Positions 2,976 through 9,340 of a stretch of DNA of 64,000 nucleotides are shown here, in pieces. The notes below the pieces were generated by a model, which searched no databases, was not told the origin of the DNA, and saw nothing but the letters and a program-made list of their open reading frames with translations. The stretch's first letter is position 1, and every line of letters begins with the position of its first letter. Origin of the DNA: Halorubrum saccharovorum DSM 1137 (lineage in GTDB: Archaea; Halobacteriota; Halobacteria; Halobacteriales; Haloferacaceae); NCBI RefSeq assembly GCF_000337915.1, contig NZ_AOJE01000010.1, positions 159,653 through 223,652 of the forward strand, given 5' to 3'. Made by a program: the position numbers and the translations under genes.

Positions 2976-3743
2976 TTACTCGTCGTCGTCGTCGTACACG
3001 CCGAGCCCCATCTGCCGGCGTCGCTCGCGCAGCTCCTCCAGCTGTCGCCGGAAGTACGCCGTCCCGACGACCGCGGCGATCGCGGCGATCACGAGGATGA
3101 CCCCGAAGACGAGCAGGTCGGTCTCGCGGTACGACTGGACCACGACCGACCCGCTCGTCACGGAGTCCCACGTGATCCGGTCGCGGTCGTCGACCGTCTC
3201 GATCTCGTGGTCTCGCGGCGACACGTGTCCGACGATCGGCACGTCGGTGCTGAACCCGGGCGGGAGCGTCACCGCGTACGACCCCTCGACGTAGGTGAGC
3301 GTGGTGAACCGGCGGGGCGACCCGGTCGCCGAGATGGCCACCCGCCCGCCCGCCATCTCCTCGCCGAACCGGACCCACGTCTCGTCCGGGGTGCGCTCGA
3401 CCTCGCCGCCCTGAGCCCGGAACTCGCTCCCGTTGATCACCTCGCCGTCCGGGTACTGATACCGGAGCGCCTCGAACTCGAAGGGCTGATCGCCCATGTA
3501 CGGAGTCTGTCGGTAGAACCGTATCTCGTCGACGCCGGAGACGTTGTACACCGCGGTGTAGCGCGTCCCGGTCGACAGGTTGATCGCCGCGTCGCGCTCC
3601 GTGTCGAAGTCGTACGAGTGGGGCGGCTCGGCGTCGAGCGTCTCGTTCGCCACCTCGCCCCCGTCGTTGACGTACGTGAGACACCCGGCGCTGACGGCGA
3701 GCAGCGCGACGACCGCGATCGCGAGGGCGAAGCGTCGGTTCAC
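2976..3743 (-). CDS. Haloarchaeal lipoprotein with C-terminal membrane anchor (DUF5803-like)
   Basis: The 255-residue protein has an N-terminal signal ending in a lipobox (AVSAGCLT, Cys about 21). A mostly beta extracellular domain follows, rich in Y, T and G. Near residues 210-232 is one transmembrane helix (LLVFGVILVIAAIAAVVGTAYF), followed by a short basic and then acidic tail. This layout fits a conserved haloarchaeal family that I believe is DUF5803, but that name is from memory. Function is unknown. It lies 3 bases downstream of the DUF2110 gene and is probably co-transcribed with DUF2110 and tfe. Confidence 0.75.
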   Translation of the reverse strand: MNRRFALAIAVVALLAVSAGCLTYVNDGGEVANETLDAEPPHSYDFDTERDAAINLSTGTRYTAVYNVSGVDEIRFYRQTPYMGDQPFEFEALRYQYPDGEVINGSEFRAQGGEVERTPDETWVRFGEEMAGGRVAISATGSPRRFTTLTYVEGSYAVTLPPGFSTDVPIVGHVSPRDHEIETVDDRDRITWDSVTSGSVVVQSYRETDLLVFGVILVIAAIAAVVGTAYFRRQLEELRERRRQMGLGVYDDDDE

Positions 3744-3746
3744 TGG

Positions 3747-4442
3747 TCAGACGACGCAGCGCATCTCGGCCGGGAGGTACGAGCCGATCGCGGCCAGCAG
3801 CCCCGGCGGGTCGGTGTCCTCGGTGCAGACGACGCTCTGTTCCAAGAGCCCCAGCCGCTCGACGGTGACGATGTCCTGGGCGTGGCCCGCGCGGTTCACG
3901 GTCGCCCGGACCTCGCCGCGGGTCGCCGAGTTGACGTTGAGGCGCCCGTCACCGCGCTGCCAGTCGTACAGGCGGTCGCGCTCGGCGTCCGCCAGCCGGC
4001 TCGGCTCCGCGTCCGGATCGCCGACGTCGCCGCCGTAGACGAACCGGACCGGGAGGTGTTGGACCAGCCCGAACCGCTCGACGACCTGCTCGGGCGACCC
4101 CCTGCCGAGGCCGATCTCGTCGGCCGGGATCCGCACGTCGACGCCGGCGTCGAGGACGAAGCCGTCGTCGTCCCACGATTCGAGGGTGCCGACGTACTCC
4201 TCGCCGGCTTCCAGCCCCTCGTCGTGGGCGACGACCTCGCCCCACGTCTCCGCGAGGACGTTGCGGGCGACTGCGGCGTCCTCGCCGCTCACGTCCACCT
4301 GCACGAAGTCGTCGTCGCGGACGCCGACGTGCCAGTCGACGTCGAGCTCGCCGACGTCGTTGGCGACGAGCGAGTTCATCCCGTCGAGCGCGCGGTCTCG
4401 GGCGTCCCCCTCGACGTAGCACTTGGTTGCGAGGACGACCAT
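3747..4442 (-). CDS. DUF2110 family protein
   Basis: This 231-residue acidic protein starts MVVLATKCYVEG and matches the archaeal DUF2110 family, which typically sits next to the TFE gene. The middle part (YVGTLESWDDDGFVLDAGVDVRIPADEIGLG, residues about 83-114) looks like an S1/OB-type beta barrel, suggesting nucleic-acid binding; this is inference. Its ATG overlaps the TFE stop codon by one base, so the two are translationally coupled. A role tied to transcription is therefore plausible but unproven. Confidence 0.82.
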   Translation of the reverse strand: MVVLATKCYVEGDARDRALDGMNSLVANDVGELDVDWHVGVRDDDFVQVDVSGEDAAVARNVLAETWGEVVAHDEGLEAGEEYVGTLESWDDDGFVLDAGVDVRIPADEIGLGRGSPEQVVERFGLVQHLPVRFVYGGDVGDPDAEPSRLADAERDRLYDWQRGDGRLNVNSATRGEVRATVNRAGHAQDIVTVERLGLLEQSVVCTEDTDPPGLLAAIGSYLPAEMRCVV

Positions 4443-4966: not shown

Positions 4967-5123
4967 TACGTGGATCTGGTGGAGGAACCGGGTTAAAAGC
5001 TCCGGAAGGAGCGGTCGCCGCCGTCCGCTGTCGCCGCCGGTCCGGTCAGTGCGATCCGCCGCCGGGACCGCCCGCGGCTGCCTCCGGCAAAGCTTTACCC
5101 CGCGTGTGACACGACAGGGTCGT

Positions 5124-6185
5124 ATGGCATCGACCGGTGACGCGGGAGACGGGTCGGATCCGGCGGCGGGATCTAGCGGCTCGAACGCCACGAACGCGTC
5201 CGCCACCACGAACGCGTCCACTCCCCCGGCGGCCGGAACGCGCGTCCGCCGAGCCGTCGGCGCGCTCGCCCTCCTCGCCGTCCCCGTCCTCCTCGCCGCC
5301 GTCCCGCTGGTCCCCGTCGCCGCCCTCCTCGGTCCCGCCGGCCTCGGCGTCATCGGCCCGGGCGCGATCGGCGGGCTCCTCGCCGCGGTCGTCGTCGGTC
5401 TCGGCGGGTCCGCCCTCCTCGGTCCGGTGGTCGTCGACCGCCGGATCGCCCGGCTCCCCGAGGCCGAACTTGACGACCGCCCCGCCGACTTCGTCGCCGA
5501 CCGCGTCGCGACCCTCGCGGACGAGGTCGGCGTCGACGCCCCCGAGGTGACGGTCGTCCGCGCGGACGCCGCCAACGTCGCCGTCGCCGACGGCTACCGC
5601 GGCTCGCGGCTCGTCGTCTCGACCCGCCTGCTCTCGCTGTCGAAGGCCGACCGCGACGCGGCGCTCCGGCACGCGCTCGTCCGGCTTCGGACCCGTGAGG
5701 CGCTCGTCTCGACGGCGCTGCTCCCGGCGCTCGGGGCCGTCGAGACGGTGGCGCTCCTCGCGACACTGCTCGTCGGGCGCCGCGGCGAGCGCACGGCGGC
5801 GGACCGCCGCGTCAACCGGATCCACGGGTACGAACCGGAGCGCGACCGGATCCCGTCGTGGGCGTACGCGGCCGCCGGGGTCGCGCTCTGGCTCCTGCTC
5901 CTACCGGCGTGGCTCCCGGCCGCCGTCGGCGACCGGCTCTACGTGGCCGGCGGGCGTCGGGACGCTGACGAGGCGGTCGCGCGGCTCGGGGCCGCCGAGC
6001 GCGACGGGCTCGGAAACGCGGTCGCGTTCGCCAGCGACGCCGCAGGTGCCGCCGACTGGCCGCCCCTCCTCGACCGGCTCTCCCTCGTCTCGATGGCGGA
6101 CGCCGAGACCGGTCGCGTGCGGGGGACGAGCCGGCAGGAGGCGCGGACCAGGCTCGCGCGGCTCCGATCGAAGCGGACGCTGTGA
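5124..6185 (+). CDS. M48/HtpX-like membrane protein without the zinc-binding motif
   Basis: The 353-residue protein has a low-complexity N-terminus, two hydrophobic segments (about 45-70 and 80-103), an M48-like domain, and another hydrophobic pair (about 196-215 and 249-275). The segment ANVAVADGYRGSRLVVSTRLL (150-170) is the HtpX strand pattern that normally precedes the catalytic helix. Where active members have HExxH, this protein has H183-A-L-V-R187, so the catalytic Glu and second His are gone. The distal ligand region reads GGRRDADEAVARL, without the usual Glu. I call it an inactive M48 paralogue that may have a regulatory or scaffold role. ATG 5124 is the first start after the promoter region. 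Confidence 0.75.
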   Translation: MASTGDAGDGSDPAAGSSGSNATNASATTNASTPPAAGTRVRRAVGALALLAVPVLLAAVPLVPVAALLGPAGLGVIGPGAIGGLLAAVVVGLGGSALLGPVVVDRRIARLPEAELDDRPADFVADRVATLADEVGVDAPEVTVVRADAANVAVADGYRGSRLVVSTRLLSLSKADRDAALRHALVRLRTREALVSTALLPALGAVETVALLATLLVGRRGERTAADRRVNRIHGYEPERDRIPSWAYAAAGVALWLLLLPAWLPAAVGDRLYVAGGRRDADEAVARLGAAERDGLGNAVAFASDAAGAADWPPLLDRLSLVSMADAETGRVRGTSRQEARTRLARLRSKRTL

Positions 6186-6266: not shown

Positions 6267-7751
6267 TCAGGAGCGGGCCGGGATCGTCATCCGGAGGAGC
6301 GTCCCGCCCGTCTCGGACGACTCCACCGAGAACTGCCCGCCCGCCTTGCTCACGACCCAGTACATCAGCCAGATCCCGAGTCGGTCCGCGTGCTTCAGCG
6401 ACGTCTCGCCCCGTTCGAGCACGTGGGTCTCGTGTTCCGGGATCCCCGGGCCGTCGTCTTCGATCTCGATCTCGATCCAGCCCTCGTCCCCGCGCTCGGC
6501 GCGTATCCAGACCGTCGGCTCCGGGTCGTCGTTGTGCTTGACCGCGTTCTCTACCCCCTCCTCGATCGCCGTCTGGAGGCCGAGCACGCTCACACCGAGG
6601 GAATCACCGTCGGGGAGCGAGAGGTGGAACGTGGCGTTCGGGTACTGATCGGTCATCTGACTCAGCAGCTCGGACAGGCGGTCGCGCAGTTCGACCGCGG
6701 TCTCGCCCGGATCCGTCTTCGAAAGCGTGTGGTCGATCTTCCGCACCGCCTCCGCGATCCGCATCAGGTCGTCGGTCGTCTCCGAGATCACGTCGAGCGA
6801 CTTCCGACGCTGCTCCTCGTCGGGATCGCTCCGCAGCAGCTCCGTGTACCCCTCGATGAGGTTCATCTTGTTCCGGAGGTTGTGGTTGAGCACCCGACTC
6901 ATGACCTCCAGCCGGCGCTCGCGGATCTTCCGGTCGGTGATGTCCGTCTGGAAGCCGACGAAGCGGATCACGTCGCCGGTCTCGTCGTGGATCGGCGCGA
7001 CGGTGAGCTGATTCCAGAACTTCTTGCCGTTCGCGCGGTAGTTCAGGATGTCGACGGAGACCGGCCGCTCGTCGTCGATCGCCTCGCGGATCGCCGCCGT
7101 CGTCGCGGGGTCCGTGTCCTCCCCTTGGAGGAGCCGACAGTCCTTCCCGAGCACCTCCGGTCCGTAGCCGGTGAGCCGCTCGAACTCCTCGTTGACGTAG
7201 GTCAGCGGGTTATTCCCCGTCCCCGGCTCCGCGAGGGCGATCCCCACCGGGGCCTCGTCCATCGCGCGCTCCTTCTGCCGGATCTCCTCGACAGCGGCCG
7301 CCAGCCGCTGCTCGCGGTCAGCGAGCCGGAGGGTGGTTCGCCGTCGCTCGACGAGGTTACCGATCCGGGTGCGGAGCGCCCGCTTGCGCACCGGGAGTTC
7401 GATGACGTCGTCGACGTGATCCCACGCCTCCTGCGTCGTCTCCCGGTCGGTGTCGCCGCCCGCGAGGAGGACGAACGGGAGGAATGCGGGCGCCGCGCGC
7501 TCCCGTCGCGACTCGATCGAGCCGGCGGCCCGCTCGAACCCCTCGTCGTCGCAGACGCAGCAGTCGAACCGCGAGTCGAGCGCCGCCGCGTCCGTCGTCG
7601 ACTCGACGCGGAAGCGGTCGCCGAGGGCTTCCGCCACGAGCTCGCGGTCGCGCCCCGACCGCATGAAAAGGAGGACGCGGACCTCCTCGTCCACGTCCGG
7701 CGGTCCGCCGAAGGGGGCGTCGGAAGCGATCCCCGCGGGGCCTGGAGCCAT
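6267..7751 (-). CDS. LOV-domain sensor histidine kinase with N-terminal receiver-like domain
   Basis: This is a 494-residue soluble kinase. Residues 23-135 resemble a response-regulator receiver fold. Residues 165-275 form a LOV-type PAS domain. The photoactive-cysteine motif reads GKDCRLLQ (C205, Q209; canonical GxNCRFLQ), and the flavin contacts N237 (ILNYR), N247 (FWN) and Q268 (FQTD) are all present. Residues 283-345 are the dimerisation/phospho-acceptor region (NHNLRN, H290), followed by an HATPase domain with EDDGPGIPEHE. Such a protein should bind FMN and respond to blue light, or be a redox-tuned derivative. It is divergent from the KaiC-like gene, 74 bases between starts. A 7-bp-arm hairpin lies directly before its ATG. 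Confidence 0.88.
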   Translation of the reverse strand: MAPGPAGIASDAPFGGPPDVDEEVRVLLFMRSGRDRELVAEALGDRFRVESTTDAAALDSRFDCCVCDDEGFERAAGSIESRRERAAPAFLPFVLLAGGDTDRETTQEAWDHVDDVIELPVRKRALRTRIGNLVERRRTTLRLADREQRLAAAVEEIRQKERAMDEAPVGIALAEPGTGNNPLTYVNEEFERLTGYGPEVLGKDCRLLQGEDTDPATTAAIREAIDDERPVSVDILNYRANGKKFWNQLTVAPIHDETGDVIRFVGFQTDITDRKIRERRLEVMSRVLNHNLRNKMNLIEGYTELLRSDPDEEQRRKSLDVISETTDDLMRIAEAVRKIDHTLSKTDPGETAVELRDRLSELLSQMTDQYPNATFHLSLPDGDSLGVSVLGLQTAIEEGVENAVKHNDDPEPTVWIRAERGDEGWIEIEIEDDGPGIPEHETHVLERGETSLKHADRLGIWLMYWVVSKAGGQFSVESSETGGTLLRMTIPARS

Positions 7752-7768: not shown

Positions 7769-7825
7769 CGTGTATCCACTAAGAGCTACCCATTGATTAA
7801 CTACCCCCCGTCCGGAGTAAACGGT

Positions 7826-9340
7826 ATGTCGACACCACTCGCCGATCGCGCCTCGACGGGTATCGCGGGGCTCGACGAGATACTGTCGGGCGGGCTCGTG
7901 CCGAACCGGAGCTACATGGTCCGCGGTCAGGCCGGCAGCGGAAAGACAATCCTGAGCTTCCACTTCCTCCAGCAGGGTGTCGACGAGGGGGAGACGGCGC
8001 TGTTCATCAACCTCGAAGAGGACGTCCGCGACCTGAAGGCCAACGCGGCGGCGCTCGGCTTCGACACCGACGCGATCGAGTTCCTCGACCTGAGCCCGAG
8101 CGCGGACGTGTTCGTCGAAGACGAGTCGTACGAGGTGTTCGAGCCAGCCGAGGTCGAGCGGGAGCCGCTGACCGAGAAGATCGTCGAGGGCGTCACCGCG
8201 GTCGACCCCGACCGAGTCGTGGTCGACCCCCTGACCCAGATCCGCTTCCTGCTGTCCGACGACTACCAGTTCCGGAAGCAGGTCGTCGGATTCATGCGTT
8301 TCCTGAAAGACCGGGAGGCGACGGTGCTGTTCACCGTCCAGAACACGCCGTCGCTGCCGACGGACGACCTCGAGTTCATCACGGACGGGACGATCCGGCT
8401 GGACGCCGCGGAGTACGGGAAGACCGTCCGCGTCCCGAAGTTCCGCGGGTCGGCGACGCAGGGTGGCGATCACGCCTACCGGGTCACCGACGCGGGCATC
8501 GAGGTGTACCCGGCGCTCCAGCCCGGCCAGCGCGACGAGGACATCGAGTTCGAACAGATATCGTCGGGGATCCCCGAGGTCGACGAGCTGCTCCACGGCG
8601 GGATCGAGCGCGGCACCGTCACCATCGTGAGCGGGCCGACCGGGGTCGGGAAGACGACCCTGAGTACGCAGTTCATGAAGGAGGCCGCGGGCCGGGGGGA
8701 ACGCTCCGTCATCTACCTGTTCGAGGAGAACCGGGAGACGTTCCTCACCCGGTCGCGGGCGGTCAACATCCCGGTCGACGAGATGCTGGAGCGCGGGACC
8801 CTGCAGGTGAACGAGGTGGAGGCGTTAGAGCGGTCGCCACAGGAGTTCGCGCGAATGGTCCGCGAGGAGGTGGAGGAGCGCGGCGCCGACATCGTGATGG
8901 TCGACGGGATCTCCGGGTACCGGCTGACGCTGCGCGGCGAGGAGGACATGATGCTCCAGCAGATGCACGCCCTCGGTCGCTACCTCAAGAACATGGGCGC
9001 GACCGGGATCTTCATCGACGAGACGCGGAACGTCACGGGGGAGTTCCACGCGACGATGGAGAACATCAGCTACCTCGCCGACAACATCGTCTTCCTCCGT
9101 CACCTCGAGGTCGAGGGCGAGCTCCGGAAGGCGATCGGCGTCCTCAAAAAGCGGACGAGCGACTTCGAGCGGACGATCCGCGAGTTCAAGATCACGGAAC
9201 ACGGGATCACCGTCGGCGAGCCGATGTCGGGACTCCGCGGCATTCTGAGCGGCACGCCGGAGGTCGTCGATCAGGAGCCGGATCGACGGTCGAATCGGGG
9301 ATCGAGGCGAGGGTCGAAGCGCGGCGACTGCGACGAGTAG
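7826..9340 (+). CDS. KaiC-like tandem RecA-domain ATPase
   Basis: The 504-residue protein has two KaiC/RecA domains. Domain I starts STGIAGLDEILSGGL and has Walker A GQAGSGKT at 34-41. Domain II starts SSGIPEVDELLHGGI and has Walker A GPTGVGKT at 270-277. The C-terminal part of domain II (GELRKAIGVLKKR, TIREFKITEHGI) matches clock KaiC closely. At the KaiC autophosphorylation pair (Ser-Thr in HIST), this protein reads NISY, so the Ser is kept and the Thr is Tyr. A charged Arg/Ser tail (about 480-504) follows. Haloarchaeal KaiC-like proteins act in light/dark or signalling responses. ATG 7826 was chosen over an upstream in-frame start at 7793 because it matches the family N-terminus and leaves a TATA-like GATTAAC about 26 bases upstream. 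Confidence 0.9.
   Translation: MSTPLADRASTGIAGLDEILSGGLVPNRSYMVRGQAGSGKTILSFHFLQQGVDEGETALFINLEEDVRDLKANAAALGFDTDAIEFLDLSPSADVFVEDESYEVFEPAEVEREPLTEKIVEGVTAVDPDRVVVDPLTQIRFLLSDDYQFRKQVVGFMRFLKDREATVLFTVQNTPSLPTDDLEFITDGTIRLDAAEYGKTVRVPKFRGSATQGGDHAYRVTDAGIEVYPALQPGQRDEDIEFEQISSGIPEVDELLHGGIERGTVTIVSGPTGVGKTTLSTQFMKEAAGRGERSVIYLFEENRETFLTRSRAVNIPVDEMLERGTLQVNEVEALERSPQEFARMVREEVEERGADIVMVDGISGYRLTLRGEEDMMLQQMHALGRYLKNMGATGIFIDETRNVTGEFHATMENISYLADNIVFLRHLEVEGELRKAIGVLKKRTSDFERTIREFKITEHGITVGEPMSGLRGILSGTPEVVDQEPDRRSNRGSRRGSKRGDCDE

Follow-up and report, generated by a model that had tools for sequence, protein, structure and literature searches.

A conserved family of M48/HtpX-like pseudoproteases encoded divergently from tfe in Halorubrum

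Halorubrum carries a real and conserved family of M48-fold pseudoproteases. The member analyzed here is a 353-residue protein encoded on the forward strand at positions 5124-6185 (ATG at 5124, stop at 6185) of the window, a stretch of 64,000 nucleotides from Halorubrum saccharovorum DSM 1137. Our results support an old family of M48/HtpX-like pseudoproteases that forms one clade, has lost the HExxH...E ligands and has been kept by selection. The protein combines the hallmarks of the pseudoprotease class, namely a protease fold, lost catalytic residues and purifying selection, and is devoid of the HExxH motif, the third-ligand glutamate and the C-terminal THP motif of an active M48 enzyme. Its function is probably non-enzymatic, with neither zinc binding nor cleavage. 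Given that the site was lost and yet the gene was preserved by selection, the protein probably has a different role, for example as a holder or regulator of other membrane proteins.

The M48/HtpX-like fold of the window protein is confirmed by a sequence profile and a predicted structure in combination. In an hhalign comparison, the family profile matched ten active haloarchaeal M48 proteins with a probability of 97.0 and a pairwise E-value of 8.5e-11 over 111 columns (residues 85-198), a stretch that starts in the second membrane helix and takes in the site helix. The single-sequence relation to M48 is weak. The window protein has no Pfam match at E<=1, the gathering score of PF01435 (Peptidase_M48) was reached by none of the 24 family members tested, and a PF01435 search of the organism's own genome matched two other genes and left the pseudoprotease gene unmatched. 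The NCBIfam HtpX models gave E-values of 2.8e-5 to 1e-3, far under their curated cut-offs. A PHROGs search with the pseudoprotease and a sequence-profile search of the PDB returned nothing useful, the sole PDB match being an acetyltransferase (E 0.6).

The AlphaFold model (pLDDT 72.3, pTM 0.67; pLDDT below 50 for residues 308-340) contains four long helices, which were assigned to the membrane by hydrophobicity, as judged by eye. Predicted membrane helices 1 (residues 37-69; 5232-5330) and 2 (residues 79-110; 5358-5453) precede three strands (residues 141-166; 5544-5621), of which residues 160-166 are the likely edge-strand equivalent according to the model and the profile alignment; residues 150-170 of the translated reading frame are ANVAVADGYRGSRLVVSTRLL. 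The active-site-helix equivalent (residues 174-189; 5643-5690), placed by the same two lines of evidence, is followed by predicted membrane helix 3 (residues 192-218; 5697-5777), which carries E207, and by predicted membrane helix 4 with the distal helix (residues 245-286; 5856-5981). Foldseek found no PDB match at E<=0.001, and its best match was HtpX 3cqb (E 8.3e-3, probability 1.00). In VIA-align, rows 1-17 span Z scores of 10.3 to 5.0, with BlaR1 at 10.3 and the HtpX domain at 6.7. By title or general knowledge, all of these rows are zinc metallopeptidases, namely BlaR1, ZMPSTE24, Ste24p, BepA, HtpX, abylysin and selecase as well as a putative Zn peptidase and a DPC-repair protease; from rank 18 onward, many ordinary helical look-alikes appear among the rows. 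Because the Z scores are middling, fold membership rests on the structure matches together with the sequence profile.

Haloarchaeal HtpX-like M48 membrane metallopeptidases include HVO_0102, HVO_2904 and HVO_A0045 of H. volcanii (PMC9263693). Our comparison was made with the set of ten active haloarchaeal M48 proteins. Like its active relatives, the window protein has two N-terminal membrane helices, a three-stranded zincin sheet, a site helix, two further hydrophobic helices and a C-terminal helix. It differs from them in that HExxH, the third glutamate and THP are replaced, the C-terminus is new and there is no Pfam match.

The zinc site was lost from this framework in a consistent manner. 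The profile alignment places 'ALRHALVRLRTREA' over 'VLAHELAHIKNRDV' of the active M48 proteins, so H183, A184 and R187 sit at the H, E and H places, and HALVR (residues 183-187; 5670-5684) occupies the HExxH position. HExxH is found in none of the 86 collected sequences, which represent 58 distinct cores from four genera, the window's own included; this total counts the window's own sequence twice (L001 and L130) and includes copies of the same genome from two collections. Some of these sequences are incomplete: L025/L145 have no in-frame C-terminal end, a contig end truncates L027/L147, and L143 is without its N-terminus at a contig edge. Among the 58 distinct cores, H occupies position 183 in 57 and N in the other; at position 184, A occurs in 56, with G and M in a single core each; and position 187 holds R in 57, with Q in the remaining core. 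The only core in which R187 is replaced comes from L166 (genome G358), which reads RHALVQ.

The remaining parts of the active site have also changed. In the active M48 set A3, R248, E249, A252 and D253 (RExxAD) and T321, H322 and P323 are invariant. The family counterpart of RExxAD is the vestige GGRRDADEAV (residues 276-285; 5949-5978), in which, with columns matched by eye, the third zinc ligand glutamate is replaced by R279 in the window protein and, across the 58 cores, by R (51 cores) or S (7 cores). The member from the fourth genus, L143, reads SRRLAD here, near the SRxREYxAD of active M48 proteins. The THP motif has given way to TSRQE in the window protein, TDRNE in L143 and TGRNE in L142 (matched by eye). 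It lies in a remodelled, basic C-terminal block (residues 308-353; 6045-6182; DWPPLLDRLS...RVRGTSRQEARTRLARLRSKR), delineated by omega and the family sequences, which, apart from a few exceptions, bears the new signature DWPPxLDRLS...RGTxR[QN]ExR. The window protein and its homologs in the genus designated g3 share 40-42% overall identity, and DWPPxLDRLS and RVRGTSRQExRxR are unchanged between them. Preservation of both the frame and the dead site in 58 distinct cores is not a matter of chance. The first-pass annotation had described an intact HtpX strand-helix pattern with HALVR at the place of HExxH and GGRRDADEAV in the distal glutamate region, all of which agree with the profile alignment, the predicted structure and the translation. 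Its view that only the catalytic residues had been lost must be abandoned because the C-terminal THP segment was also rebuilt into a new signature.

Invariant charged residues accompany these losses. E207, R271, R278, D282 and R318 are present in all 58 cores, and every one of the 57 cores that extend far enough carries R341 and R343. E207, R271, R278 and D282 may, together with the arginines and glutamates of the C-terminal block, constitute a new ligand-binding or catalytic site that replaced zinc, since such strictness in or near a membrane helix is, in our judgement, unusual for a mere scaffold. However, the model gives no readable site geometry, and many of the invariant residues could be fold-stabilizing salt bridges. 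We know of no site that matches the E207/R271/R278/D282 set, and we regard this explanation as quite unlikely.

The family was found in all 52 Halorubrum genomes listed, the organism's own included. Outside this genus it occurs in five genomes from three further genera, namely three g3 genomes, one g92 genome (E 3.4e-73) and one g93 genome (E 3.3e-50), and the catalytic motif was read in the loci of all 57. When 170 genomes of the family-rank taxon were searched with the profile, 83 gave a match at E<=1e-6; the remaining listed matches outside Halorubrum, g3, g92 and g93 have E-values of 6e-13 or weaker, and none of the 20 match-free genomes listed is a Halorubrum. An order-wide search with a single sequence gave a match at E<=1e-3 in 112 of 293 sampled genomes. 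The matches in the other Halorubrum genomes are strong (18/18, E 3e-126 or better), three g3 matches show 47-48% identity and all others are weak. HExxH is present in all 11 weak matches that were read (L050, L051, L053-L055, L057 and L078-L082), a reading that leaves out L052 and L056, which had no match in tblastn. The dead proteins form one clade with a support of 100/100 in two trees, the second of which omits 16 of the 55 rows of the first and adds L142 and L143. The stem of the dead clade is long (2.4-2.55 changes per column, with the root at the midpoint). A constraint joining the dead clade to the L123/L114/L115/L117/L124 group, which was chosen after the first tree, is not rejected (AU p 0.144). 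Because the dead proteins form one clade, a single loss of the site suffices if the root lies among active proteins.

Selection has maintained the protein. Whole-gene omega ranges from 0.18 to 0.33 in nine pairs. Over residues 37-353, comparison of the window with five genomes gave an omega of 0.181-0.254 for the pseudoprotease versus 0.153-0.219 for the active HtpX; the former is higher in three of the five pairs, and the values are similar overall. In four of the five pairs, the dN of the pseudoprotease exceeds that of HtpX by a factor of about 1.5 to 2.5. Constraint is unevenly distributed along the chain. The disordered, low-complexity N-terminus predicted at residues 1-36 (5124-5231) is nearly neutral, with an omega of 0.8-1.4 in five pairs, those that offered sufficient codons, and omega varies from 0.23 to 0.88 over residues 37-110. 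In residues 308-353, omega is 0-0.11 in nine pairs and the lowest of all segments in seven of them, and dS is ordinary (0.23-0.45), which indicates that the constraint acts on the protein. As a separate observation, dS at window positions 5475-5690 is 0.07-0.10 against L003, L008 and L014, which are among the closest relatives, compared with 0.26-0.41 over the last 46 codons in the same pairs, possibly as a result of local recombination.

These data bear on whether the dead site merely reflects a decaying gene, a recent mutation or a sequencing error. The missing catalytic motif and the nearly neutral N-terminus would fit such an origin, but all 52 Halorubrum genomes and the five genomes of other genera carry the gene without HExxH, the whole-gene omega is low and the dead proteins belong to one clade. 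The first-pass annotation had regarded intact HExxH in close orthologs as the sign of a recent mutation or error and had called for a test of purifying selection on the dead-site form; no such ortholog was found among the 86 sequences, and the omega is near that of active HtpX. Recent mutation, error and pseudogene formation are thus ruled out by omega, distribution and the uniform absence of HExxH, and decay of any kind is extremely improbable. The pseudoprotease reading of the first-pass annotation is instead supported by these results and by the M48 profile alignment.

The pseudoprotease gene has a conserved genomic setting. In the window, it is divergent from tfe (TFE-alpha, PF02002; 4442-4966, reverse strand) across a 157-bp intergenic region (4967-5123), and the divergent order recurs in every other locus tested (49/49 in total, comprising 27 named loci, the window, 18 Halorubrum and three g3). 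The divergence is also kept in g92 (L142), and the g93 gene lies at a contig edge. The distance between tfe and the pseudoprotease gene is 1.8 kb in L003 and 1.4 kb in L029. A conserved promoter-like element, TCCGGCAAAGCTTTAC, lies at 5083-5098 on the forward strand, with its TTTA 27-30 nt before the ATG in a leaderless layout. This element or a close variant, with TTTA or TATA approximately 26-30 nt before the ATG, occurs in 37 of 46 upstream sequences of the Halorubrum group, and it may be a TATA-type promoter. In the other nine, the start was placed elsewhere by the script. The chosen start lies inside tfe in L007, L011, L030, L031 and L032, and the script located no nearby start in L019, L022, L023 and L045; our statements on the N-terminus of the family rest on none of these loci. 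The conserved upstream sequence supports the start at 5124.

Genes for DUF2110 and DUF5803 proteins stand behind tfe in 27 of 27 loci and are located at 2976-4442 on the reverse strand of the window. On the other side, a converging histidine kinase gene followed by a KaiC-type gene is present in 22 of 27 loci; both are absent from the available DNA of L016, L019, L025, L026 and L027, the last of which ends at the pseudoprotease gene. The window kinase (6267-7751, reverse strand) has a PAS domain with GKDCRLLQG, which resembles the LOV photoreceptor signature, and with the KaiC-type gene (7793-9340, forward strand) it could be a light-linked sensor pair.

The conserved pairing with tfe raises the idea of a membrane-anchored link to signaling or transcription, in which the dead domain would be a sensor and the C-terminal block would bind a cytoplasmic regulator, perhaps TFE-alpha. 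The divergent arrangement in all 49 loci and in L142 of g92, and the basic C-terminus with the lowest omega in seven of nine pairs, are consistent with this idea. However, divergent neighbors need not interact, and tfe is present in 290 of 293 genomes of the order, whereas strong pseudoprotease matches in the same sample are confined to Halorubrum and g3. We consider the link unlikely. An active M48 gene with HELAH also occupies the tfe-divergent slot in G207, a genome from another genus (L060, 783-1940; L123). It was rejected as an in-place ancestor because the slot holds such a gene in one of five genomes of that genus and G207 has 14 M48 matches, some of them clustered, so the slot gene may be an independent insertion. 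The negatives from a survey of 35 other tfe slots weigh little, since the ORF calling behind it was crude and overlooked the dead gene of L062 and L063.

We favor, with a probability of roughly 40%, a role for the pseudoprotease as a membrane-anchored, non-cutting adaptor or holdase that binds clients through its edge strand and basic C-terminal block. The protein would be embedded in the membrane in the manner of HtpX and present its zincin-like domain at the membrane face. R187, which is almost invariant, may stabilize the metal-free former zinc site together with R278 and D282, which do not vary. Segments of membrane proteins that are unfolded or unassembled would be bound, uncut, by strand addition to the retained edge strand, and the C-terminal block (DWPPxLDRLS...RGTxRxExR) may dock a partner or the membrane surface. 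The protein would then serve membrane-protein quality control, or play a regulatory part, alongside the cell's active HtpX; two intact M48 genes are present in the organism's own genome.

Precedents exist for parts of this adaptor mechanism. The core fold of E. coli BepA, an M48 protein, matches the AlphaFold model in VIA-align. The BepA edge strand contacts the client in a chaperone-like mode too and is needed for both degradation and chaperone-like function (PMC8423444). Unlike the pseudoprotease, BepA is an active periplasmic enzyme with a TPR domain. Sugar-beet RF1-Oma1 is a plant mitochondrial protein. Like the pseudoprotease, it has an M48 domain with a mutated zinc motif beside an intact paralogue; it has HQVGH in place of HExxH, the zinc motif of a yeast mutant without proteolytic activity, and is described as neofunctionalized, and how it differs from the intact paralogue implies that it binds the client preSATP6 (PMC6894571). 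RF1-Oma1 retains both histidines, whereas the pseudoprotease lost the glutamate and the second histidine and has a remodelled C-terminus.

Other observations count against the adaptor reading. The chaperone-like activity of BepA is weakened in the protease-dead E137Q variant (PMC8423444). Retention of the edge strand may reflect nothing more than its part in the fold, and in four of five pairs the pseudoprotease has changed faster than HtpX. Furthermore, the strongest constraint falls on the C-terminal block and not on the edge strand, so partner binding or a new activity fits just as well.

The dead protein may instead pair with the 290-residue HtpX paralogue and inhibit it, tether it or hand clients over to it in an iRhom-like manner. 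Every genome examined, the organism's own and 12 others, contains an HtpX-type M48 gene with HELAH. Moreover, iRhoms are membrane proteins with a protease fold and no catalysis that regulate other membrane proteins, and they are described as controlling rhomboids or ADAM17 (PMC3149277, PMC6451368, PMC11248996). However, iRhoms have the rhomboid fold and are eukaryotic, so they serve as an analogy only. An HtpX-type gene also occurs in G084 and G207, neither of which yielded a dead-family member, and the link to HtpX is therefore not specific. The mapped neighbors in the 27 loci are not M48 genes. We consider pairing with HtpX rather unlikely.

As a tentative overall history, which is possible and somewhat doubtful, a zincin core lost its metal once, acquired a nearly invariant arginine in place of the second zinc histidine, had its C-terminal part rebuilt and now serves as a tfe-divergent membrane adaptor or sensor in a previously undescribed archaeal family. 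Among the open-licence papers listed by searches on M48/HtpX pseudoproteases and haloarchaea, we saw no description of the family. It would be an error to annotate such a gene as 'zinc metalloprotease HtpX' on the strength of a weak profile hit. The well-studied membrane pseudoproteases, such as iRhoms, are eukaryotic. An archaeal example that spans a whole genus, with intact paralogues alongside it in the cell, allows what the HtpX scaffold does without cutting to be studied directly.
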